NCBI GenBank assembly: GCA_020152595.1
Contig: JAIGNY010003262.1
Location: 1 to 64,000, forward strand
Reading direction: 5' to 3'
Origin: Chiridota heheva
Lineage: Eukaryota; Echinodermata; Holothuroidea; Apodida; Chiridotidae
Length of the DNA stretch: 64,000 nucleotides
Shown: in pieces, positions 25,672 to 64,000 of the stretch
Layout of the letters: each line of letters starts with the position of its first letter
How positions within the stretch are numbered: the first letter of the stretch is position 1
Made by a program: the position numbers and the translations under genes
Notes under the pieces: model-generated
Told to the model about the DNA's origin: nothing
What the model saw: only the letters and a program-made list of their open reading frames with translations
Databases searched by the model: none

Positions 25672-28600
25672 AGCAATCATGTCTATGCTACACGGCATAC
25701 CTCTGTATCATGTCAGTGCTACACGACATACCTCTGTATCATGTCTGTGCTACACGACATACCTCTGTATCATGTCTGTGCTACCTGACATACCTCTGTA
25801 TCATGTCTGTGCTACCTGACATACCTCTGTATCATGTCTGTGCTACACGACATACCTCTGTATCATGTCTGTGCTACACGACATACCTCTGTATCATGTC
25901 TGTGCTACACGACATACCTCTGTACCATGTCTGTGCTACACGACATACCTCTTTATCATGTCTGTGCTACACGACATACCTCTGTATCATGTCTGTGCTA
26001 CATGACATACCTCTGTACCATGTCTGTGCTACACGACATACCTCTGTATCATGTCTGTGCTACACGACATACCTCTGTATCATGTCTGTGCTACACGACA
26101 TACCTCTGTATCATGTCTGTGCTACCTGACATACCTCTGTATCATGTCTGTGCTACACGACATACCTCTGTATCATGTCTGTGCTACACGACATATCTCT
26201 GTATCATGTCTGTGCTACACGACATACCTCTGTATCATGTCTGTGCTACACCACATACCTCTGTATCATGTCTGTGCTACATGACATACCTCTGTATCAT
26301 GTCTGTGCTACACGACATACCTCTGTATCATGTCTGTGCTGCACCACATACCTCTGTATCATGTCTGTGCTACACGACATACCTCTGTATCATGTCTGTG
26401 CTACACGACATACCTCTGTATTATGTCTGTGCTACACGACATACCTCTGTATCATGTCTGTGCTACCTGACATACCTCTGTATCATGTCTGTGCTACACG
26501 ACATACCTCTGTATCATGTCTGTGCTACACGACATACCTCTGTATCATGTCTGTGCTACACGACATACCTCTGTATCATGTCTGTGCTACACGACATACC
26601 TCTGTATCATGTCTGTGCTACCTGACATACCTCTGTATCATGTCTGTGCTACACGACATACCTCTGTATCATGTCTGTGCTACACGACATACCTCTGTAT
26701 CATGTCTGTGCTGCACCACATACCTCTGTATCATGTCTGTGCTACACGACATACCTCTGTATCATGTCTGTGCTGCACCACATACCTCTGTATCATGTCT
26801 GTGCTACACGACATACCTCTGTATCATGTCTGTGCTACACGACATACCTCTGTATCATGTCTGTGCTACACGACATACCTCTGTATCATGTCTGTGCTAC
26901 ACGACATACCTCTGTATCATGTCTGTGCTACACGACATACCTCTGTATCATGTCTGTGCTACACGACATACCTCTGTATCATGTCTGTGCTACACGACAT
27001 AACTCTGTATCATGTCTGTGCTACACGACATACCTCTGTATCATGTCTGTGCTACACGACATACCTCTGTATCATGTCTGTGCTACACGACATACCTCTG
27101 TATCATGTCTGTGCTACACGACATACCTCTGTATCATGTCTGTGCTACACGACATACCTCTGTACCATGTCTGTGCTACACGACATACCTCTTTATCATG
27201 TCTGTGCTACACGACATACCTCTGTATCATGTCTGTGCTACATGACATACCTCTGTACCATGTCTGTGCTACACGACATACCTCTGTATCATGTCTGTGC
27301 TACACGACATACCTCTGTATCATGTCTGTGCTACACGACATACCTCTGTATCATGTCTGTGCTACCTGACATACCTCTGTATCATGTCTGTGCTACACGA
27401 CATACCTCTGTATCATGTCTGTGCTACATGACATACCTCTGTATCATGTCTGTGCTACACGACATACCTCTGTATCATGTCTGTGCTACACCACATACCT
27501 CTGTATCATGTCTGTGCTACATGACATACCTCTGTATCATGTCTGTGCTACACGACATACCTCTGTATCATGTCTGTGCTGCACCACATACCTCTGTATC
27601 ATGTCTGTGCTACACGACATACCTCTGTATCATGTCTGTGCTACACGACATACCTCTGTATTATGTCTGTGCTACACGACATACCTCTGTATCATGTCTG
27701 TGCTACCTGACATACCTCTGTATCATGTCTGTGCTACACGACATACCTCTGTATCATGTCTGAGCTACACGACATACCTCTGTATCATGTCTGTGCTACA
27801 CGACATACCTCTGTATCATGTCTGTGCTACACGACATACCTCTGTATCATGTCTGTGCTACCTGACATACCTCTGTATCATGTCTGTGCTACACGACATA
27901 CCTCTGTATCATGTCTGTGCTACACGACATACCTCTGTATCATGTCTGTGCTGCACCACATACCTCTGTATCATGTCTGTGCTACACGACATACCTCTGT
28001 ATCATGTCTGTGCTGCACCACATACCTCTGTATCATGTCTGTGCTACACGACATACCTCTGTATCATGTCTGTGCTACACGACATACCTCTGTATCATGT
28101 CTGTGCTACACGACATACCTCTGTATCATGTCTGTGCTACACGACATACCTCTGTATCATGTCTGTGCTACACGACATACCTCTGTATCATGTCTGTGCT
28201 ACACGACATACCTCTGTATCATGTCTGTGCTACACGACATAACTCTGTATCATGTCTGTGCTACACGACATACCTCTGTATCATGTCTGTGCTACACGAC
28301 ATACCTCTGTATCATGTCTGTGCTACACGACATACCTCTGTATCATGTCTGTGCTACACGACATACCTCTGTATCATGTCTGTGCTACACGACATACCTC
28401 TGTATCATGTCTGTGCTACACGACATACCTCTGTATCATGTCTGTGCTACACGACATACCTCTGTATCATGTCTGTGCTACACGACATACCTCTGTATCA
28501 TGTCTGTGCTACACGACATACCTCTGTATCATGTCTGTGCTACACGACATACCTCTGTATCATGTCTGTGCTACACGACATACCTCTGTATCATGTCTGT

Positions 28601-30583
28601 GCTACCTGACATACCTCTGTATCATGTCTGTGCTACACGACATACCTCTGTATCATGTCTGTGCTACCTGACATACCTCTGTATCATGTCTGTGCTACAC
28701 GACATACCTCTGTATCATGTCTGTGCTACACGACATACCTCTGTATCATGTCTGTGCTACACGACATACCTCTGTATCATGTCTGTGCTACACGACATAC
28801 CTCTGTATCATGTCTGTGCTACCTGACATACCTCTGTATCATGTCTGTGCTACACGACATACCTCTGTATCATGTCTGTGCTACACGACATACCTCTGTA
28901 TCATGTCTGTGCTGCACCACATACCTCTGTATCATGTCTGTGCTACACGACATACCTCTGTATCATGTCTGTGCTACACGACATACCTCTGTATCATGTC
29001 TGTGCTACACGACATACCTCTGTATCATGTCTGTGCTACACGACATACCTTTGTATCATGTCTGTGCTACACGACATACCTCTGTATCATGTCTGTGCTA
29101 CACGACATACCTCTGTATCATGTCTGTGCTACCTGACATACCTCTGTATCATGTCTGTGCTACACGACATACCTCTGTATCATGTCTGTGCTACACGACA
29201 TACCTCTGTATCATGTCTGTGCTGCACCACATACCTCTGTATCATGTCTGTGCTACACGACATACCTCTGTATCATATCTGTGCTACACGACATACCTCT
29301 GTATCATGTCTGTGCTACACGACATACCTCTGTATCATGTCTGTGCTACACAACATACCTCTGTATCATATGTCTGTGCTACAAGACATACCTCTGTATC
29401 ATGTCTGTGCTACACGACATACCTCTGTATCATGTCTGTGCTACACGACATACCTCTGTATCATGTCTGTGCTACATGACATACCTCTGTATCATGTCTG
29501 TGCTACACGACATACCTCGTATCATGTCTGTGCTACACGACATACCTCTGTATCATGTCTGTGCTACACGACATACCTCTGTATCATGTCTGTGCTACAC
29601 GACATACCTCTGTATCATGTCTGTGCTACACGACATACCTCTGTATCATGTCTGTGCTACACGACATACCTCGTATCATGTCTGTGCTACGACATACCAT
29701 ATCATGTCTGTGCTGTATCATGTCTGTGCTACACGACATACCTCTGTATCATGTCTGTGCTACACGACATACCTCTGTATCATGTCTGTGCTACACGACA
29801 TACCTCTGTATCATGTCTGTGCTACACGACATACCTCTGTATCATGTCTGTGCTACACGACATACCTCTGTATCATGTCTGTGCTACACGACATACCTCT
29901 GTATCATGTCTGTGCTACACGACATACCTCTGTATCATGTCTGTGCTACACGACATACCTGATTATCATGTCTGTGCTACACGACATACCTCTGTATCAT
30001 GTCTGTGCTACACGACATACCTCTGTATCATGTCTGTGCTGCACCACATACCTCTGTATCATGTCTGTGCTACACGACATACTCTGTATCATGTCTGTGC
30101 TACACGACATACCTCGTATCATGTCTGTGCTACACGACATACCTCTATCATGTCTGTGCTACGACATACCTCTGTATCATGTCTGTGCTACACGACATAC
30201 CTCTGTATCATGTCTGTGCTGCACCACATACCTCTGTATCATGTCTGTGCTACACGACATACCTCTGTATCATGTCTGTGCTACACGACATACCTCTGTA
30301 TCATGTCTGTGCTACACGACATACCTCTGTATCATGTCTGTGCTGCACCACATACCTCTGTATCATGTCTGTGCTACACGACATACCTCTGTATCATGTC
30401 TGTGCTACACGACATACCTCTGTATCATGTCTGTGCTACACGACATACCTCGTATCATGTCTGTGCTACACGACATACCTCTGTATCATGTCTGTGCTAC
30501 ACGACATACCTCTGTATCATGTCTGTGCTACACGACATACCTCTGTATCATGTCTGTGCTACACGACATACCTCTGTATCATT
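25672..30583. repeat. 31-bp minisatellite, about 158 copies (4.9 kb)
   Basis: The unit is CCTCTGTATCATGTCTGTGC followed by TACACGACATA. Variants include TACCTGACATA, TGCACCACATA and TACATGACATA. The unit has no stop codon in any + frame and 31 is not a multiple of 3, so open frames of up to 623 codons appear in all three phases; none is a gene. Truncated units (CCTCGTATC) cluster after 29500. It lies in intron 7. Confidence 0.98.
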
Positions 30584-37507: not shown

Positions 37508-37866
37508 ATCAACATATCTAAAAGCTGATGATTAGATTTTGATTAATTTGGTGTGTGGTCTTGTTACTGCTTAAGGAAGAAGTGATTAAAATTTGAGACA
37601 TGGAACAGGGGAAGGGCCCAAATAGGGGGGTGGGGATGTATCAGGGTGAGATCTGTCTATACCTTTCCAATGGAATGTGCTTAACAATAATTCATGCCTG
37701 AAAAGAAATCAAAACAGTCAATTTTTAGGACTCTAAGAAAATCAGATCAAGTGGTTTGTGGTATCAAAAGTAGAATTAAAACAATTGGCGTCTTGCCTGA
37801 AAGGAAAATGATGGAATGTTAATCTTGACTGGATAGAACTAAAACAATGAATAAAACAGAAATCAA

Positions 37867-38833
37867 TGATCAGAGAGTAGATCCTGAAGTGTTTAGAATG
37901 CTAATGGCAATACAGATTGACAATGACCAGAGAGTAGATCCTAAAGTGTTTAGAATGCTAATGGCAATACAGATTGACAATGACCAGAGAGTAGATCCTG
38001 AAGTGTTTAGAATGCTAATGGCAATACAGATTGACAATGACCAGAGAGTAGATCCTGAAGTGTTTAGAATGCTAATGGCAATACAGATTGACAATGATCA
38101 GAGAGTAGATCCTGAAGTGTTTAGAATGCTAATGGCAATACAGATTGACAATGACCAGAGAGTAGATCCTGAAGTGTTTAGAATGCTAATGGCAATACAG
38201 ATTGACAATGACCAGAGAGTAGATCCTGAAGTGTTTAGAATGCTAATGGCAATACAGATTGACAATGACCAGAGAGTAGATCCTAAAGTGTTTAGAATGC
38301 TAATGGCAATACAGATTGACAATGACCAGAGAGTAGATCCTGAAGTGTTTAGAATGCTAATGGCAATACAGATTGACAATGACCAGAGAGTAGATCCTGA
38401 AGTGTTTAGAATGCTAATGGCAATACAGATTGACAATGATCAGAGAGTAGATCCTGAAGTGTTTAGAATGCTAATGGCAATACAGATTGACAATGACCAG
38501 AGAGTAGATCCTGAAGTGTTTAGAATGCTAATGGCAATACAGATTGACAATGACCAGAGAGTAGATCCTAAAGTGTTTAGAATGCTAATGGCAATACAGA
38601 TTGACAACGACCAGAGAGTAGATCCTGAAGTGTTTAGAATGCTAATGGCAATACAGATTGACAATGACCAGAGAGTAGATCCTGAAGTGTTTAGAATGCT
38701 AATGGCAATACAGATTGACAATGATCAGAGAGTAGATCCTGAAGTGTTTAGAATGCTAATGGCAATACAGATTGACAATGACCAGAGAGTAGATCCTGAA
38801 GTGTTTAGAATGCTAATGGCAATACAGATTGAC
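37867..38833. repeat. 57-bp minisatellite, 17 copies, in-frame 19-codon unit
   Basis: The unit would read DQRVDPEVFRMLMAIQIDN in one + frame and stays open for 337 codons (37847-38860). Copies differ only by Glu/Lys at one codon (GAA/AAA) and silent GAC/GAT or AAT/AAC changes. Similar open frames exist on the minus strand. No splice signal or phase joins it to exons 9 or 10, so I treat it as an intronic array. Confidence 0.95.
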
Positions 38834-39064
38834 AGTGAGAAGGAGATTGTTTTAGGATAAAACTTGGTGGGCCTACGATTTCTTCAGTAGATTATATTGG
38901 GGATGGGGAATGAACAGGGCCGGGGGTATGTGCTCTATAGAGTACTAAAATTCTAGTTGTAACTGTCATTGTGGGTAATGACAGTTAACCTTATGATTGA
39001 TTTTGTAGTAACAAATGATAGACAATGTCATTAACTTTTGCAATGATTAAATCCACCTGTGCAG

Positions 39065-39189
39065 ACGAACTTATACAGAGAATTCTTATTGGATTGGACT
39101 ACATGATATATATGAGGAGGGGTCATGGGAGTGGTCAGATGGATCTCCATATAGTTATAGCAAGTGGAACAGCAATGAACCCAATAACA
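39065..39189 (+). CDS. Exon 10: C-type lectin domain 2, middle part with EPN motif
   Basis: This 125-nt exon runs from phase 2 to phase 1, with acceptor CACCTGTGCAG and donor GTAAGT. It encodes [40 protein letters not shown] and N. It contains the WIGL strand, the WxWSDG turn and the long-loop EPN motif, which in this family marks calcium-dependent mannose, fucose or GlcNAc-type binding. The intron that follows is 11.4 kb and is mostly one 53-bp array. Confidence 0.92.
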
Positions 39190-39354
39190 GTAAGTAACCA
39201 TCGACATGTGTATGTAGCCTTTGGTGATCATTATAAAATCGACACAATTTAGAAAAACTGTCTTGCATGAAAATAATTCACAGAAAATGTAATGTTAGGT
39301 TAGTTCACCGAAGATGCAATTAACTTTCCCAACCATATCTCTTTGCTGCAGAAT

Positions 39355-42300
39355 AATGGACAGTTGGTCTTCCTCTGTGGGCAGCTCCATGAACCATGTT
39401 CATGAATAATGGACAGTTGGTCTTCCTCTGTGCATGGGGAGCTCCATGAACCATGTTCATGAATAATGGACAGTTGGTCTTCCTCAGAGGGGAGCTCCAT
39501 GAACCATGTTCATGAATAATGGACAGTTGGTCTTCCTCAGAGGGGAGCTCCATGAACCATGTTCATGAATGATGGACAGTTGGTCTTCCTCAGTGAGGAG
39601 CTCCATGAACCATGTTCATGAATAATGGACAGTTGGTCTTCCTCTGTGGGAGCTCCATGAACCATGTTCATGAATAATGGACAGTTGGTCTTCCTCTGTG
39701 GGGAGCTCCATGAACCATGTTCATGAATAATGGACAGTTGGTCTTCCTTGGTGGGGAGCTTCATGAACCATGTTCATGAATAATGGACAGTTGGTCTTCA
39801 GTGAGGAGCTCCATGAACCATGTTCATGAATAATGGACAGTTGGTCTTCCTCTGTGGGGAGCTCCATGAATCATGTTCATGAATAATGGACAGTTGGTCT
39901 TCCTCAGTGGGGAGCTCCATGAACCATGTTCATGAATAATGGACAGTTGGTCTTCCTCGGTGGGGAGCTCCATGAACCATGTTCATGAATAATGGACAGT
40001 TGGTCTTCCTCAGAGGGGAGCTCCATGAACCATGTTCATGAATAATGGACAGTTGGTCTTCCTCAGTGAGGAGCTCCATGAACCATGTTCATGAATAATG
40101 GACAGTTGGTCTTCCTCTGTGGGGAGCTCCATGAACCATGTTCATGAATAATGGACAGTTGGTCTTCCTCTGTGGGGAGCTCCATGAACCATGTTCATGA
40201 ATAATGGACAGTTGGTCTTCCTCTGTGGGGAGCTCCATGAACCATGTTCATGAATAATGGACAGTTGGTCTTCCTCGGTGGGGAGCTCCATGAACCATGT
40301 TCATGAATAATGGACAGTTGGTCTTCCTCAGTGAGGAGCTCCATGAACCATGTTCATGAATAATGGACAGTTGGTCTTCCTCTGTGGGGAGCTCCATGAA
40401 CCATGTTCATGAATAATGGACAGTTGGTCTTCCTCAGTGGGGAGCTCCATGAACCATGTTCATTAATAATGGACAGTTGGTCTTCCTCAGTGGGGAGCTC
40501 CATGAACCATGTTCATGAATAATGGACAGTTGGTCTTCCTCAGAGGGGAGCTCCATGAACCATGTTCATGAATAATGGACAGTTGGTCTTCCTCAGTGAG
40601 GAGCTCCATGAACCATGTTCATGAATAATGGACAGTTGGTCTTCCTCTGTGGGGAGCTCCATGAACCATGTTCATGAATAATGGACAGTTAGTCTTCCTC
40701 AGTAAAGAGCTCCATGAACCACTTGCATGAATAATGGACAGTTGGTCTTCCTCAGTGAGAAGCTCCATGAACCATGTTCATGAATAATGGACAGTTAGTC
40801 TTCCGCAGTGGGGAGCTCCATAAACCATGTTTATGAATAATGGACAGTTGGTCTTCCTCAGTAAAGAGCTCCATGAACCATGTTCATGAATAATGGACAG
40901 TTGGTCTTCCTCAGTGAGAAGCTCCATGAACCATGTTCATGAATAATGGACAGTTAGTCTTCCGCAGTGGGGAGCTCCATAAACCATGTTTATGAATAAT
41001 GGACAGTTGGTCTTCCTCAGTGAGAAGCTCCATGAACCATGTTCATGAATAATGGACAGTTGGTCTTCCTTAGAGGGAAGCTCCATAAACCATGTTCATG
41101 AATAATGGACAGTTGGTCTTCCTCAGTGAGAAGCTCTATGAACCATGTTCATGAATAATGGACAGTTGGTCTTCCTCAGTGGGGAGCTCCATGAACCATG
41201 TTCATGAATAATGGACAGTTGGTCTTCCTTAGTGGGGAGCTCCATGAACCATGTTCATGAATAATGGACAGTTGGTCTTCCTCAGTGGGGAGCTCCATGA
41301 ACCATGTTCATGAATAATGGACAGTTGGTCTTCCTCAGTGGGGAGCTCCATGAACCATGTTCATGAATAATGGACAGTTGGTCTTCCTCAGTGAGGAGCT
41401 CCATGAACCATGTTCATGAATAATGGACAGTTGGTCTTCCTCAGTGAGAAGCTCCATGAACCATGTTCATGAATAATGGACAGTTGGTCTTCCTTAGTGG
41501 GGAGCTCCATGAACCATGTTCATGAATAATGGACACTTGGTCTTCCTCAGTGGGGAGCTCCATGAACCATGCTCATGAATAATGGACAGTTGGTCTTCCT
41601 CAGTGAGGAGCTCCATGAACCATGTTCATGAATAATGGACACTTGGTCTTCCTCAGTGGGGAGCTCCATGAACCATGCTCATGAATAATGGACAGTTGGT
41701 CTTCCTCAGTGAGGAGCTCCATGAACCATGTTCATGAATAATGGACAGTTGGTCTTCCTCAGTGAGGAGCTCCATGAACCATGTTCATGAATAATGGACA
41801 GTTGGTCTTCCTCAGTGAGAAGCTCCCATGAACCATGTTCATGAATAATGGACAGTTGGTCTTCCTTAGTGGGGAGCTCCATGAACCATGTTCATGAATA
41901 ATGGACAGTTGGTCTTCCTCAGTGGGAGCTCCATGAACCATGCTCATGAATAATGGACAGTTGGTCTTCCTCAGTGAGGAGCTCCATGAACCATGTTCAT
42001 TAATAATGGACAGTTGGTCTTCCTCAGTGGGGAACTCCATGAACCATGTTCATGAATAATGGACAGTTGGTCTTCCTCAGAGGGGAGCTCCATGAACCAT
42101 GTTCATGAATAATGGACAGTTGGTCTTCCTCTGTGGGGAGCTCCATGAACCATGTTCATGAATAATGGACAGTTGGTCTTCCTCAGTGGGGAGCTCCATG
42201 AACCATGTTCATGAATAATGGACAGTTGGTCTTTCTCAGTGGGGAGCTCCATGAACCATGTTCATAAATAATGGACAGTTGGTCTTCCTCAGTGAGGAGC

Positions 42301-45300
42301 TCCATGAACCATGTTCATGAATAATGGACAGTTGGTCTTTCTCAGAGGGGAGCTCCATGAACCATGTTCATGAATAATGGACAGTTGGTCTTCCCCAGTG
42401 AGGAGCTCCATAAACCATGTTCATGAATAACGGACAGTTGGTCTTCCTCAGTGGGGAGCTCCATGAACCATGTTCATGAATAATGGACAGTTGGTCTTCC
42501 TCAGTGGGGAGCTCCATGAACCATGTTCATGAATAATGGACAGTTGGTCTTCCTCAGTGGGGAGCTCCATAAACCATGTTCATGAATAATGGACAGTTGG
42601 TCTTCCTCAGTGAGGAGCTCCATAAACCATGTTCATGAGTAATGGACAGTTAGTCTTCCTCAGTAAAGAGCTCCATGAACCATGTTCATGAATAATGGAC
42701 ACTTGGTCTTCCTCAGTGGGGAGCTCCATGAACCATGCTCATGAATAATGGACAGTTGGTCTTCCTCAGTGAGAGCTCCATGAACCATGTTCATGAATAA
42801 TGGACAGTTGGTCTTCCTCAGTGAGGAGCTCCATTAACCATGTTCATGAATAATGGACAGTTGGTCTTCCTCAGTGAGAAGCTCCATGAACCATGTTCAT
42901 GAATAATGGACAGTTGGTCTTCCTTAGTGGGGAGCTCCATGAACCATGTTCATGAATAATGGACAGTTGGTCTTCCTCAGTGGGGAGCTCCATGAACCAT
43001 GCTCATGAATAATGGACAGTTGGTCTTCCTCAGTGAGGAGCTCCATGAACCATGTTCATTAATAATGGACAGTTGGTCTTCCTCAGTGGGGAACTCCATG
43101 AACCATGTTCATGAATAATGGACAGTTGGTCTTCCTCAGAGGGGGAGCTCCATGAACCATGTTCATGAATAATGGACAGTTGGTCTTCCTCTGTGGGGAG
43201 CTTCATGAACCATGTTCATGAATAATGGACAGTTGGTCTTCCTCAGTGGGGAGCTCCATGAACCATGTTCATGAATAATGGACAGTTGGTCTTTCTCAGT
43301 GGGGAGCTCCATGAACCATGTTCATAAATAATGGACAGTTGGTCTTCCTCAGTGAGGAGCTCCCATGAACCATGTTCATGAATAATGGACAGTTGGTCTT
43401 TCTCAGAGGGGAGCTCCATGAACCATGTTCATGAATAATGGACAGTTGGTCTTCCCCAGTGAGGAGCTCCATAAACCATGTTCATGAATAACGGACAGTT
43501 GGTCTTCCTCAGTGGGGAGCTCCATGAACCATGTTCATGAATAATGGACAGTTGGTCTTCCTCAGTGGGGAGCTCCATGAACCATGTTCATGAATAATGG
43601 ACAGTTGGTCTTCCTCAGTGAGGAGCTCCATGAACCATGTTCATGAATAATGGACAGTTGGTCTTCCTCAGTGAGGAGCTCCATGAACCATGTTCATGAA
43701 TAATGGACACTTGGTCTTCCTCAGTGGGGAGCTCCATGAACCATGCTCATGAATAATGGACAGTTGGTCTTCCTCAGTGAGGAGCTCCATGAACCATGTT
43801 CATGAATAATGGACAGTTGGTCTTCCTCAGTGAGGAGCTCCATGAACCATGTTCATGAATAATGGACAGTTGGTCTTCCTCAGTGAGAAGCTCCATGAAC
43901 CATGTTCATGAATAATGGACAGTTGGTCTTCCTTAGTGGGGAGCTCCATGAACCATGTTCATGAATAATGGACAGTTGGTCTTCCTCAGTGGGGAGCTCC
44001 ATGAACCATGCTCATGAATAATGGACAGTTGGTCTTCCTCAGTGAGGAGCTCCATGAACCATGTTCATTAATAATGGACAGTTGGTCTTCCTCAGTGGGG
44101 AACTCCATGAACCATGTTCATGAATAATGGACAGTTGGTCTTCCTCAGAGGGGAGCTCCATGAACCATGTTCATGAATAATGGACAGTTGGTCTTCCTCT
44201 GTGGGGAGCTCCATGAACCATGTTCATGAATAATGGACAGTTGGTCTTCCTCAGTGGGGAGCTCCATGAACCATGTTCATAAATAATGGACAGTTGGTCT
44301 TCCTCAGTGAGGAGCTCCATGAACCATGTTCATGAATAATGGACAGTTGGTCTTTCTCAGAGGGGAGCTCCATGAACCATGTTCATGAATAATGGACAGT
44401 TGGTCTTCCCCAGTGAGGAGCTCCATAAACCATGTTCATGAATAACGGACAGTTGGTCTTCCTCAGTGGGGAGCTCCATGAACCATGTTCATGAATAATG
44501 GACAGTTGGTCTTCCTCAGTGGGGAGCTCCATGAACCATGTTCATGAATAATGGACAGTTGGTCTTCCTCAGTGAGGAGCTCCATGAACCATGTTCATGA
44601 ATAATGGACAGTTGGTCTTCCTCAGTGGGGAGCTCCATGAACCATGTTCATGAATAATGGACAGTTGGTCTTTCTCAGTGGGGAGCTCCATGAACCATGT
44701 TCATAAATAATGGACAGTTGGTCTTCCTCAGTGAGGAGCTCCATGAACCATGTTCATGAATAATGGACAGTTGGTCTTTCTCAGAGGGGAGCTCCATGAA
44801 CCATGTTCATGAATAATGGACAGTTGGTCTTCCTCAGTGGGGAGCTCCATAAACCATGTTCATGAATAATGGACAGTTGGTCTTCCTCAGTAGGGAGCTC
44901 CATGAACCATGTTCATGAATAATGGACAGTTGGTCTTCCTCAGTGAGGAGCTCCATAAACCATGTTCATGAGTAATGGACAGTTAGTCTTCCTCAGTAAA
45001 GAGCTCCATGAACCATGTTCATGAATAATGGACACTTGGTCTTCCTCAGTGGGGAGCTCCATGAACCATGCTCATGAATAATGGACAGTTGGTCTTCCTC
45101 AGTGAGGAGCTCCATGAACCATGTTCATGAATAATGGACAGTTGGTCTTCCTCAGTGAGGAGCTCCATTAACCATGTTCATGAATAATGGACAGTTGGTC
45201 TTCCTCAGAGGGGAGCTCCATGAACCATGTTCATGAATAATGGACAGTTGGTCTTCCTCTGTGGGGAACTCCATGAACCATGTTCATGAATAATGGACAG

Positions 45301-48300
45301 TTGGTCTTCCTCAGAGGGGGAGCTCCATGAACCATGTTCATGAATAATGGACAGTTGGTCTTCCTCTGTGGGGGAGCTCCATGAACCATGTTCATGAATA
45401 ATGGACAGTTGGTCTTCCTCAGTGGGGAGCTCCATGAACCATGTTCATGAATAATGGACAGTTGGTCTTTCTCAGTGGGAGCTCCATGAACCATGTTCAT
45501 AAATAATGGACAGTTGGTCTTCCTCAGTGAGGAGCTCCATGAACCATGTTCATGAATAATGGACAGTTGGTCTTTCTCAGAGGGGAGCTCCATGAACCAT
45601 GTTCATGAATAATGGACAGTTGGTCTTCCCCAGTGAGGAGCTCCATAAACCATGTTCATGAATAACGGACAGTTGGTCTTCCTCAGTGGGGAGCTCCATG
45701 AACCATGTTCATGAATAATGGACAGTTGGTCTTCCTCAGTGGGGGAGCTCCATGAACCATGTTCATGAATAATGGACAGTTGGTCTTCCTCAGTGAGGAG
45801 CTCCATGAACCATGTTCATGAATAATGGACAGTTGGTCTTCCTCAGTGGGGAGCTCCATGAACCATGTTCATGAATAATGGACAGTTGGTCTTTCTCAGT
45901 GGGGAGCTCCATGAACCATGTTCATAAATAATGGACAGTTGGTCTTCCTCAGTGAGGAGCTCCATGAACCATGTTCATGAATAATGGACAGTTGGTCTTT
46001 CTCAGAGGGGGAGCTCCATGAACCATGTTCATGAATAATGGACAGTTGGTCTTCCCAGTGAGGAGCTCCATAAACCATGTTCATGAATAACGGACAGTTG
46101 GTCTTCCTCAGTGGGGAGCTCCATGAACCATGTTCATGAATAATGGACAGTTGGTCTTCCTCAGTGGGGAGCTCCATGAACCATGTTCATGAATAATGGA
46201 CAGTTGGTCTTCCTCAGTGAGGAGCTCCATGAACCATGTTCATGAATAATGGACAGTTGGTCTTCCTCAGTGAGGAGCTTCATGAACCATATTCATTAAT
46301 GATGGACAGTTGGTCTTCCTCAGTGGGGAGCTCCATGAACCATGATCATGATTAATGGACAGTTGGTCTTCCTCAGAGGGGAGCTCCATGAACCATGTTC
46401 ATGAATAATGAACAGTTGGTCTTCCTCAGAGGGGAGCTCCATAAACCATGTTCATGAATAATGGACAGTTGGTCTTCCTCAGTGGGGAGCTCCATGAACC
46501 ATGTTCATGAATAATGGACAGTTGGTCTTCCTGAGAGGGGAGCTCCATGAACCATGTTCATGAATAATGGACAGTTGGTCTTCCTTAGAGGGGAGCTCCA
46601 TGAACCATGTTCATGATTAATGGACAGTTGGTCTTCCTCAGTGGGGAGCTCCATAAACCATGTTCATGAATAATGGACAGTTGGTCTTCCTCAGTAGGGA
46701 GCTCCATGAACCATGTTCATGAATAATGGACAGTTGGTCTTCCTCAGTGAGGAGCTCCATAAACCATGTTCATGAGTAATGGACAGTTAGTCTTCCTCAG
46801 TAAAGAGCTCCATGAACCATGTTCATGAATAATGGACACTTGGTCTTCCTCAGTGGGGAGCTCCATGAACCATGCTCATGAATAATGGACAGTTGGTCTT
46901 CCTCAGTGAGGAGCTCCATGAACCATGTTCATGAATAATGGACAGTTGGTCTTCCTCAGTGAGGAGCTCCATTAACCATGTTCATGAATAATGGACAGTT
47001 GGTCTTCCTCAGTGAGAAGCTCCATGAACCATGTTCATGAATAATGGACAGTTGGTCTTCCTTAGTGGGGAGCTCCATGAACCATGTTCATGAATAATGG
47101 ACAGTTGGTCTTCCTCAGTGGGGAGCTCCATGAACCATGCTCATGAATAATGGACAGTTGGTCTTCCTCAGTGAGGAGCTCCATGAACCATGTTCATTAA
47201 TAATGGACAGTTGGTCTTCCTCAGTGGGGAACTCCATGAACCATGTTCATGAATAATGGACAGTTGGTCTTCCTCAGAGGGGGAGCTCCATGAACCATGT
47301 TCATGAATAATGGACAGTTGGTCTTCCTCTGTGGGGAGCTTCATGAACCATGTTCATGAATAATGGACAGTTGGTCTTCCTCAGTGGGGGGAGCTCCATG
47401 AACCATGTTCATGAATAATGGACAGTTGGTCTTTCTCAGTGGGGAGCTCCATGAACCATGTTCATAAATAATGGACAGTTGGTCTTCCTCAGTGAGGAGC
47501 TCCATGAACCATGTTCATGAATAATGGACAGTTGGTCTTTCTCAGAGGGGAGCTCCATGAACCATGTTCATGAATAATGGACAGTTGGTCTTCCCAGTGA
47601 GGAGCTCCATAAACCATGTTCATGAATAACGGACAGTTGGTCTTCCTCAGTGGGGAGCTCCATGAACCATGTTCATGAATAATGGACAGTTGGTCTTCCT
47701 CAGTGGGGAGCTCCATGAACCATGTTCATGAATAATGGACAGTTGGTCTTCCTCAGTGAGGAGCTCCATGAACCATGTTCGTGAATAATGGACAGTTGGT
47801 CTTCCTCAGTGGGGGAGCTCCATGAACCATGTTCATGAATAATGGACAGTTGGTCTTTCTCAGTGGGGAGCTCCATGAACCATGTTCATAAATAATGGAC
47901 AGTTGGTCTTCCTCAGTGAGGAGCTCCATGAACCATGTTCATGAATAATGGACAGTTGGTCTTTCTCAGAGGGGGAGCTCCATGAACCATGTTCATGAAT
48001 AATGGACAGTTGGTCTTCCCCAGTGAGGAGCTCCATAAACCATGTTCATGAATAACGGACAGTTGGTCTTCCTCAGTGGGGAGCTCCATGAACCATGTTC
48101 ATGAATAATGGACAGTTGGTCTTCCTCAGTGGGGAGCTCCATGAACCATGTTCATGAATAATGGACAGTTGGTCTTCCTCAGTGAGGAGCTCCATGAACC
48201 ATGTTCATGAATAATGGACAGTTGGTCTTCCTCAGTGAGGAGCTTCATGAACCATATTCATTAATGATGGACAGTTGGTCTTCCTCAGTGGGGAGCTCCA

Positions 48301-48842
48301 TGAACCATGTTCATGATTAATGGACAGTTGGTCTTCCTCAGAGGGGAGCTCCATGAACCATGTTCATGAATAATGAACAGTTGGTCTTCCTCAGAGGGGA
48401 GCTCCATAAACCATGTTCATGAATAATGGACAGTTGGTCTTCCTCAGTGGGAAGCTCCATGAACCATGTTCATGAATAATGGACAGTTGGTCTTCCTCAG
48501 TGGGGAGCTCCATGAACCATGTTCATGAATAATGGACAGTTGGTCTTCCTCAGAGGGAGCTCCATGAACCATGTTCATGAATAATGGACAGTTGGTCTTC
48601 CTTAGAGGGGAGCTCCATGAACCATGTTCATGATTAATGGACAGTTGGTCTTCCTCAGTGGGGAGCTCCATAAACCATGTTCATGAATAATGGACAGTTG
48701 GTCTTCCTCAGTAGGGGGCTCCATGAACCATGTTCATGAATAATGGACAGTTGGTCTTCCTCAGTGAGGAGCTCCATAAACCATGTTCATGAGTAATGGA
48801 CAGTTGATCTTCCTTAGAGGGGAGCTCCATGAACCATGCTCA
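39355..48842. repeat. 53-bp minisatellite, about 179 copies (9.5 kb)
   Basis: The unit contains AATAATGGACAGTTGGTCTT, CCTCAGTGGGGAGCTC and CATGAACCATGTTCATG. The last phrase is a 7-bp inverted repeat (CATGAAC/GTTCATG) around CAT. Copies are mostly 90-100% alike by eye, with recurring variants (CTCTGTGGGG, CTCAGAGGGG, CTCAGTGAGG, AATAACGGACAG). It fills most of the 11.4-kb intron 10, between the EPN and WND exons. Confidence 0.98.
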
Positions 48843-48985
48843 TGTACATCTTTCAAATTGAAATAAAGGTGAAAAATTCATAAAGTGAAATGCTATAATT
48901 TATCCAAAAAATACAAAACAGCAGAACTACCCACTATCCACTCTGAAGCAAGACAATTAACTTCCCTAGGAGAAAGTCTAATTCC

Positions 48986-62170: not shown

Positions 62171-62976
62171 GTAATACCCTCCACCTATTTGATCAAGGGT
62201 CTTCAAGTAGTATTTACATTTATATGGAGAAAATTCTGATTGGTTTGAAATTTTCTCAGAAAAACTACTGTGAACAATTTTTGAATAAACGTGGATCAAT
62301 TCTAACTTTGCAAACCTTTCTCTTAAAATTGGAACCTAGTTGTATTATAAAGAAAATCTTCATTTGATATTCATGAAGTGCATGGAAGATTTATTTCATG
62401 AATAACCTTATTATTGTATTGTAAATGAATGTACGTATCCCACATATAAAACAAGGGGTCAAGTCAAGTGTCTTACCAAACTAGTTTTATTGCAATAACT
62501 CATGACACTTTATCTGAAATCTATCTTTTAATTGTTTGGAAATAGATGACCTTTGCCAACTTGGCATTGGATTGATTTAAGAATCTTCTTGTGAACATAA
62601 TTCAAGGGCATTAACTCCATCAACTGAGAAACTAAATTCCCTAGATCAAATTGACAGATGATAGAAATAAAACAATTTTTATGTTCTGCTAAATTCTGTT
62701 TGTGTAATTTTTGGATGCTAGAAATCTGTTGGTTAAAGTCTGTTGGTTAAAAGTCAGACATATTGCCCTATTGCTTGTGAAAGAAAAAGTAAATGGTAGC
62801 AGAGAAAATTCAGGGGTGCATCAATGATTGAATATATTATTATAATTAAGTTTTATTGTTTAAAGTATAATAATGATGTGATCTCATAGTTTCAGATACA
62901 CTGGTACCTTTGTTTGCCCATAGGTAAATATTTAATAAACAAATCATTGAACTATAAATTAATTGGCTGTTTACAG
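62171..62976 (+). other. Intron 14, no array
   Basis: The 0.8 kb is AT-rich and mostly single-copy. No exon or repeat array is supported. Confidence 0.6.
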
Positions 62977-63162
62977 GTAACTGCGCCAATGGGCATACTT
63001 GCAACTGTGAAAATAATGATAATGCTTGGCGTGAAGATGGTGGTTATCTGGAGGAGAAAGATTACCTCCCTGTCTCACAAATGGCGTTTGGTGACACTGG
63101 AGATTCTTCTGAGGAAGGCTACATTACATTAGGAGCACTGTACTGCAAGAATGATGAGTCAT
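62977..63162 (+). CDS. Exon 15: fibrinogen-like domain, C-terminal part
   Basis: This 186-nt phase 1-1 exon has acceptor CTGTTTACAG and donor GTAAGT. It encodes NCANGHTCNCENNDNAWRED, GGYLEEKDYLPVSQMAFGDT and GYITLGALYCKNDES. It has the C.CxxN...WR.D.G.L..KDYLPV.Q...GDT...... LG.L.C pattern closing the CNTNAP-type domain. It is the last exon seen. Its terminal 19 bases, TGCAAGAATGATGAGTCAT, are also part of the tandem repeat unit that fills the following intron. Confidence 0.92.
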
Positions 63163-63712
63163 GTAAGTTTGACCCTTAAATAATGTACAGTATGCAAGAA
63201 TAATCAGTCATGTAAGTTTGACCCATTAGTAATGTATGCAAGAATGATTTGTCATATAAGTTTGATCCATAAGTAATGTATGCAAGAATGATGAGTCATG
63301 TAAGTTTGATCCATTAGTAATGTATGGAAGAATGATGAGTCATGTAAGTTTGACCCATAAGTAATGTATGCAAGAATGATGAGTCATGTAAGTTTGACCC
63401 TTAAATAATGTACAGTATGCAAGAATGATCAGTCATGTAAGTTTGACCCATTAGTAATGTATGCAAGAATGATTTGTCATATAAGTTTGATCCATAAGTA
63501 ATGTGTGCAAGAATGATGAGTCATGTAAGTTTGATCCATAAGTAATGTATGCAAGAATGATTTGTCATGTAAGTTTTATCCATAAGTAATTTATGGAACA
63601 TTGATGAGTCATGTAAGTTTAACCCATTAGTAATGTGTGCAAGAATAATGAGTCATGTAAGTTTGACCCATTAGTAATGTACGCAAGAATGAGAGTCATG
63701 TAAGTTTGATCT
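63143..63712. repeat. 44-bp minisatellite built from the exon 15 / intron 15 junction
   Basis: The unit is GTAAGTTTGACCCATTAGTA, ATGTATGCAAGAATGATG, AGTCAT. Its second part equals the last 19 bases of exon 15 (TGCAAGAATGATGAGTCAT) and its first part is the real 5' splice site. Twelve intronic copies follow the true junction; ten keep CATGTAAGT and two have CATATAAGT. Confidence 0.95.
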
Positions 63713-64000
63713 AACACTAATTTTATTTGACGGTGATACCACCCTTTAAGCATGTTATTTGACGGTGATGCCGTGAAAGTGATTCCTTTTGGAAAGTGTG
63801 GAATGTTCTACATTTCTTTTTGCTTTTTAGTATTTGATAGCGAGAATATCAAACTTTAATAGCAGGTTGAGGTATATGATCATGAACGAATTGGTGTCAG
63901 AAACCATGTTTATATTTAACGTTTATTGTTGAGATGGAGTATTTATATGTGTATTTACTTTATGCATCATGGTTGATCACATGGAGATAGCTTACTAAGT
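63713..64000 (+). other. Right edge, intronic
   Basis: No exon is recognised. TATTTGACGGTGAT occurs twice about 40 bp apart near 63726 and 63760. The next exon of the gene must lie beyond the window. Confidence 0.5.

Follow-up and report, generated by a model that had tools for sequence, protein, structure and literature searches.

A 44-bp minisatellite that spans a coding exon end and its splice donor in a lectin/PAN-type gene of Chiridota heheva

Gene structure and anatomy of the array

The window analysed here comprises the opening 64,000 nucleotides of contig C3117, which belongs to a 1.1-Gb assembly of Chiridota heheva, the one assembly examined. Its + strand carries a gene that reads as multi-exon, consisting of C-type lectin exons, the exon at 62977–63162 and a PAN-domain exon downstream. 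Nine pieces were scanned with Pfam, and four of them passed the threshold for Lectin_C, one of the four being a hand-made join that contains another of them; the exon starting at 67267 of the contig scored 40.2 bits for PAN_1, where the cut-off is 21.4. The exon at 62977–63162 matched no Pfam family when scanned alone, an upstream exon gave COLFI and Fibrinogen_C, both below threshold, and comparison of the exon's domain with the PDB, by sequence and by profile, returned nothing relevant. The domain presumably resembles the fibrinogen-like region of contactin-associated proteins.

The exon has an open frame and is directly preceded by an acceptor (...TTTACAG, ending at 62976); its last codons, TGC AAG AAT GAT GAG TCA + T, encode CKNDES. 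Joining 63162 to 67267, across an intron of 4104 nt, leaves the frame unbroken (...YCKNDES-Y-LITSRTDFIFIKGHAISGYND...) and leads into the PAN-domain exon. We infer that 63163 is the authentic donor, an assignment that fits this continuity of frame and the phase-1 GT seen in paralogous exons (described below).

Table 1. Features at the exon–intron junction and in the adjoining intron (positions are those of the window unless a contig or locus is named)
Feature	Position	Strand	Details
Coding exon	62977..63162	+	186 nt, phase 1 to phase 1
Authentic splice donor (inferred), array copy 1	63163..63168	+	CAT/GTAAGT (exon/intron)
In-frame TAA, kept if any later donor is used	63177..63179	+	
44-bp minisatellite	63139..63709	+	12.8 copies; Tandem Repeats Finder, period 44
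Five-unit block including the coding copy	63139..63363	+	225 bp
Five-unit block, second copy	63364..63588	+	Tandem Repeats Finder, period 225
Ten intronic GTAAGT decoy donors, first five	63212, 63300, 63344, 63388, 63437	+	the ten span 63212..63705
Ten intronic GTAAGT decoy donors, last five	63525, 63569, 63613, 63657, 63700	+	the ten span 63212..63705
Degenerate donor ATAAGT, copy 3	63256..63261	+	
Degenerate donor ATAAGT, copy 8	63481..63486	+	block-duplicate partner of copy 3
Second array, 66-bp unit	63962..64000, on to C3117:67235 (L004:1-3235)	+	about 49 copies; same intron

The exon runs directly into a minisatellite (Table 1). An earlier note on this DNA had described a 44-bp unit in which the exon end at CAT/GTAAGT is the first of 13 tandem copies, with GTAAGT kept in ten of the 12 intronic copies and ATAAGT in the remaining two; reading and counting the copies bore this description out, and Tandem Repeats Finder recovered the array with the same period. 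The unit is repeated head to tail, lies within the roughly 10–100 bp range of minisatellites, and joins about 19–23 nt of exon end to the donor and to some 21 nt of intron. The motif [G/A]TAAGTTT begins at each of the 13 donor positions in Table 1, and the copies are spaced by 44 bp, except for 49 bp after copies 1 and 6 and 43 bp before copy 13. CATGTAAGT is found in 11 of the 13 copies, namely the exon-end copy and ten intronic ones, and CATATAAGT occupies the two ATAAGT positions (63256 and 63481). Throughout copies 2–12, between 16 and 19 of the 19 bases preceding the donor are equal to the exon end.

Tandem Repeats Finder also reported a period of 225 bp (2.6 copies), a five-unit higher-order repeat that the earlier note does not mention. 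The two complete blocks are identical at 212 of 225 positions, and an exact match of 58 bp between them (63144–63201 in the first block) starts within the exon. Thus, the coding copy belongs to the duplicated block and took part in a rearrangement of the array at least once. Since the two ATAAGT copies are partners in this duplication, they probably represent a single decayed lineage.

The + strand of the window contains 25 GTAAGT sites, 11 in the array and 14 elsewhere, and about 29 are expected for the whole window from base composition. Their clustering is not due to chance, yet it is a trivial outcome of tandem duplication. That the copy number is an artefact of assembly is extremely unlikely: tandem arrays are indeed prone to mis-assembly, but the copies here are set apart by distinct substitutions that follow an ordered pattern, unlike simple collapse or stutter, and the array has a single full match in the genome. 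It is also very unlikely that the array is a transcriptional element, acting as an intronic enhancer through TGAGTCA, a palindrome in the unit which we take to be an AP-1-like motif. Although seven of the window's 13 TGA[C/G]TCA sites fall within the array, the motif is coding sequence in the first copy and is missing from six of the 13 copies.

The same intron holds the second array listed in Table 1, which fills most of it and stops 31 bp short of the exon at 67267, so that the intron consists almost wholly of two arrays. Tandem repeats make up about 51% of the window. At 37829–38857, a 57-bp unit is repeated in 17 copies with a 98% match, leaving an open frame of 343 codons with a period of 19 residues (NDQRVDPEVFRMLMAIQID) that is a candidate for coding; on the opposite strand, stretches of 94 and 113 codons are open as well. 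Just past the lectin exon at 39051–39194 comes an array of 9.5 kb (39351–48844), made up of 179 copies of a 53-bp unit. Additionally, a 31-bp unit in 158 copies (25676–30582) leaves frames open on the + strand for as many as 638 codons, as expected from a 31-bp unit that is free of stops in all three frames.

Origin of the repeat unit

At least nine further exons in the same genome match the exon at 62977–63162, with 35–47% identity (weakest E value 0.018). The ten aligned exons have five invariant residues in common, including a cysteine located before the last five whole codons of the present exon. The codon of this cysteine (TGC in the present exon) lies inside the repeat unit, which extends a few bases further upstream. 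In eight of the nine paralogs a phase-1 GT, judged by eye and in some cases a weak donor (e.g. L009), follows one to four codons past the shared cysteine. The unit has no match in any of the nine paralogous loci, which cover about 3.1 kb each (approximately 1.5 kb per side), and in none of them does an array cross the homologous junction, examined from the cysteine to 40 bases past it. Because the unit holds an invariant coding cysteine and is absent from all nine paralogs, it was very probably copied out of the exon–intron junction into the intron, a direction of copying that we infer with confidence and that agrees with the origin proposed in the earlier note. Among the paralogs themselves, the frame of one (L010, G000:C261) stops four codons past the shared cysteine, and the domain may there form the end of the protein, and two others (L016 and L017) are closely related and located on one contig (G000:C2156).

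The opposite order of events, in which a minisatellite of the intron would have extended into the exon or given it a new donor, the exon end being array sequence, has to be weighed against similar sequences elsewhere in the genome. A 14-mer core of the unit, GATGAGTCATGTAA, has 35 matches in the genome compared with three for the reversed control: six here, 13 at C3304, eight at C2235 and eight in single places, one of which (L051) sits in a 19-bp repeat of 2.3 copies. The arrays that carry this core have units of 23 bp at C3304 and 19 bp at C2235 which are otherwise different, although the C3304 unit equals the 44-bp unit at 19 of 22 bases when compared by eye. A DNA search of the genome returned the one full match mentioned above and weaker matches at C3304 (66%) and C3634 (73%), the latter being a 23-bp array of another unit. 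Moreover, the 44-bp unit shows a weak similarity between its 22-bp halves (p 0.0013 at this one shift, or about 0.03 when 22 shifts are allowed for).

The core-bearing arrays, the weaker DNA matches and the half-unit similarity are what an array that came first would lead one to expect, as is the distance of the present exon end from the cysteine, which by eye is one to four codons greater than in the eight paralogs that have a putative donor. Nevertheless, the unit covers a cysteine codon that is coding and invariant in all ten aligned exons, and the other two core-bearing arrays differ from this one in unit and in context. We accordingly give little credence to an array that preceded the junction. 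As judged from the sequences, convergence is more likely than descent for the arrays with the shared core. A genome-wide family of related arrays was also considered and was rejected, as the units at C2235, C3304 and C3634 differ, that at C3304 being close over 22 bases.

The 19-bp minisatellite at G000:C2235 (L045, 1236–3469; about 119 copies of GCAAGAGGTGACGAGTCAT) deserves separate mention. Its right flank resembles the flank of the L051 site and, by eye, could be where a LINE-like reverse transcriptase frame ends, as if this array had grown from a coding part of a transposon.

Predicted effect of the later donors

Translation past the first donor gives CKFDP followed by TAA, as the earlier note had also read in the first unit, and this TAA would be retained in frame from each of the 12 later sites. 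Consequently, the array cannot lengthen the protein, and use of a later donor could result only in truncation or in transcript decay. The predicted pairing with the U1 end amounts to -5.5 kcal/mol at all 11 GTAAGT sites and to -2.5 kcal/mol at the two ATAAGT sites. Judged by their shared 9-mer and by this prediction, the decoys should match the true donor in strength. When duplicated donors are equal, the intron-proximal (later) one is often favoured, a preference that would predict more leak to the decoys than the explanation we favour below assumes. In DOK7 intron 4, two competing donors are decided between by their strength and by the position of SRSF1, according to the available part of the report (PMC5585400). 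The RNA of 63100–63760 is predicted to fold more stably than all of 20 shuffled sequences (z -2.17; 0/20 as stable), a comparison in which shuffling destroys the tandem repeats.

Conservation of the donors was compared with that of the rest of the unit. With block duplicates collapsed, the donor 9-mer has one changed cell in copies 2–12, where a window of nine columns has 5.4 on average. The set comprises 11 intronic copies, of which fewer are independent; copy 13 was left out because of its deletion. Five of the 36 windows, the donor itself included, are as conserved, and random sets of columns gave p 0.058. The donors are thus not kept significantly better than the rest of the unit, a borderline result that is compatible with weak selection.

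At the scale of the genome, three tandem AGGTAAGT motifs 15–45 bases apart gave 903 overlapping matches, and the reversed pattern gave 3983, a control figure that a single abundant simple repeat may have raised. Donor-bearing arrays are therefore common in this minisatellite-rich genome and not in excess over the control, and genome-wide enrichment was rejected. Among the matches listed there were 16 contigs, from which C189 was dropped as a simple AGGT repeat; none of the 15 remaining arrays showed, by eye, a convincing exon entering its first copy.

Relation to known donor-bearing arrays and interpretation

The minisatellite of human IFI6 (6-16) is said, with reference to Turri et al. 1995, to provide multiple splice donor sites. 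In the available part of a paper citing that work (PMC4526556), donors are used in two of the downstream repeat units and three mRNA species result. IFI6 and the present locus are alike, as far as these excerpts go, in that several splice donors come from one tandem array; they differ in that the later donors produce different isoforms in IFI6, reportedly slightly longer proteins, whereas all of them lead to the same stop here.

A parallel in the consequences is described for human ABCA7, in the accessible portion of PMC5954066. There, the VNTR of intron 18 directly abuts exon 18, whose donor GT forms the opening two bases of the 25-bp unit. When splicing shifts to the next donor, one unit is retained and the transcript is out of frame, with a premature stop, and cycloheximide raised the level of premature-stop transcripts. 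The VNTR is highly length-polymorphic, with effects on expression; its length affected the skipping of exon 19 and not the retention of a unit (PMC5954066). To the extent covered by that portion, both loci have a minisatellite at an exon end, a unit that includes the authentic donor, later copies that are potential donors, and a premature stop once a unit is retained. The array studied here differs in its 44-bp unit, which also includes about 20 coding bases, and in the stop already located in the first retained unit. With ABCA7 as precedent, use of a next donor would be realistic in the present gene as well.

Tandem genomic duplication can also lead to intron gain, as in the potato RdRp gene (PMC4974935, available part), and it is likewise a source of new splice signals here. 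Gain of an intron by this route involves copying both donor and acceptor; the present unit, by contrast, repeats the exon end and donor without the exon's acceptor, so that only donors multiply and no new intron is evident. The available parts of PMC12771815 and PMC11506328 contain nothing on donor-bearing minisatellites. With a putative authentic 5' splice site inside its first copy and an identical CATGTAAGT in ten of 12 later ones, the array is of the same kind as those of the human genes ABCA7 and IFI6, an unusual feature but not a new one. What sets it apart is the coding sequence within its unit, how many identical decoys it holds, and a duplicated block that takes in the exon end.

Taken together, these data make it probable that the array derives from the junction and is a tolerated by-product. 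Slippage or unequal exchange would have copied the exon–intron junction of a lectin/PAN-type gene, in a segment reaching from the last 19–23 coding bases across the donor to about 21 bases of intron. This copy would then have grown into the intronic 44-bp minisatellite, helped by duplication of a five-unit block together with the coding copy. The first donor (63163) would predominate in splicing, and the ten downstream decoys would leak at a low to moderate level, each leaked transcript meeting the immediate TAA and being truncated or decayed. First-donor predominance, leak and decay are suggested here largely by analogy with the human arrays.

The decoys could instead form a regulated truncation switch, competing for U1 and setting the ratio of the full-length receptor to a form stopped after CKFDP, which would perhaps be soluble or decay. 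Their identity with the true donor in 9-mer and predicted U1 pairing, the close copies of the exon end that precede them, the single stop to which they all lead, and the use of a second donor within the donor-bearing VNTR reported in the accessible portion of PMC5954066 would suit such a role. On the other hand, the donors lack a significant excess of conservation, a lineage of donors has degenerated to ATAAGT and was even copied by the block duplication, the genome shows no excess of donor-bearing arrays over the control, the paralogs do without an array, and unit retention in ABCA7 was unaffected by VNTR length (PMC5954066, same portion). None of the present tests supports a switch, which we regard as unlikely and do not favour.

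Distinctly unlikely, too, is a hypermutable splice-and-sequence dial, in which exchange between copies would rewrite the exon end or its donor and copy number would set the fraction of truncated receptor. Variants present among the array copies would encode CKNDLS or CKNDQS at the exon end, or would install a dead ATAAGT donor, and the 225-bp duplication did involve the coding copy. The independence of unit retention from VNTR length in ABCA7 lowers the probability of a dial based on copy number. If such a dial did operate, the coding exon end would be a live member of an array on a lectin-type receptor.

As a tolerated by-product of junction copying, the array would still provide a natural experiment in donor choice, with eleven identical 9-mer donors placed in series on one pre-mRNA in a similar local context. 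The built-in stop would make any leak visible, and the locus could serve to test the effect of position alone on the choice of a 5' splice site. The finding extends the kind of array known from ABCA7 and IFI6 to another animal genome, with coding bases within the unit.
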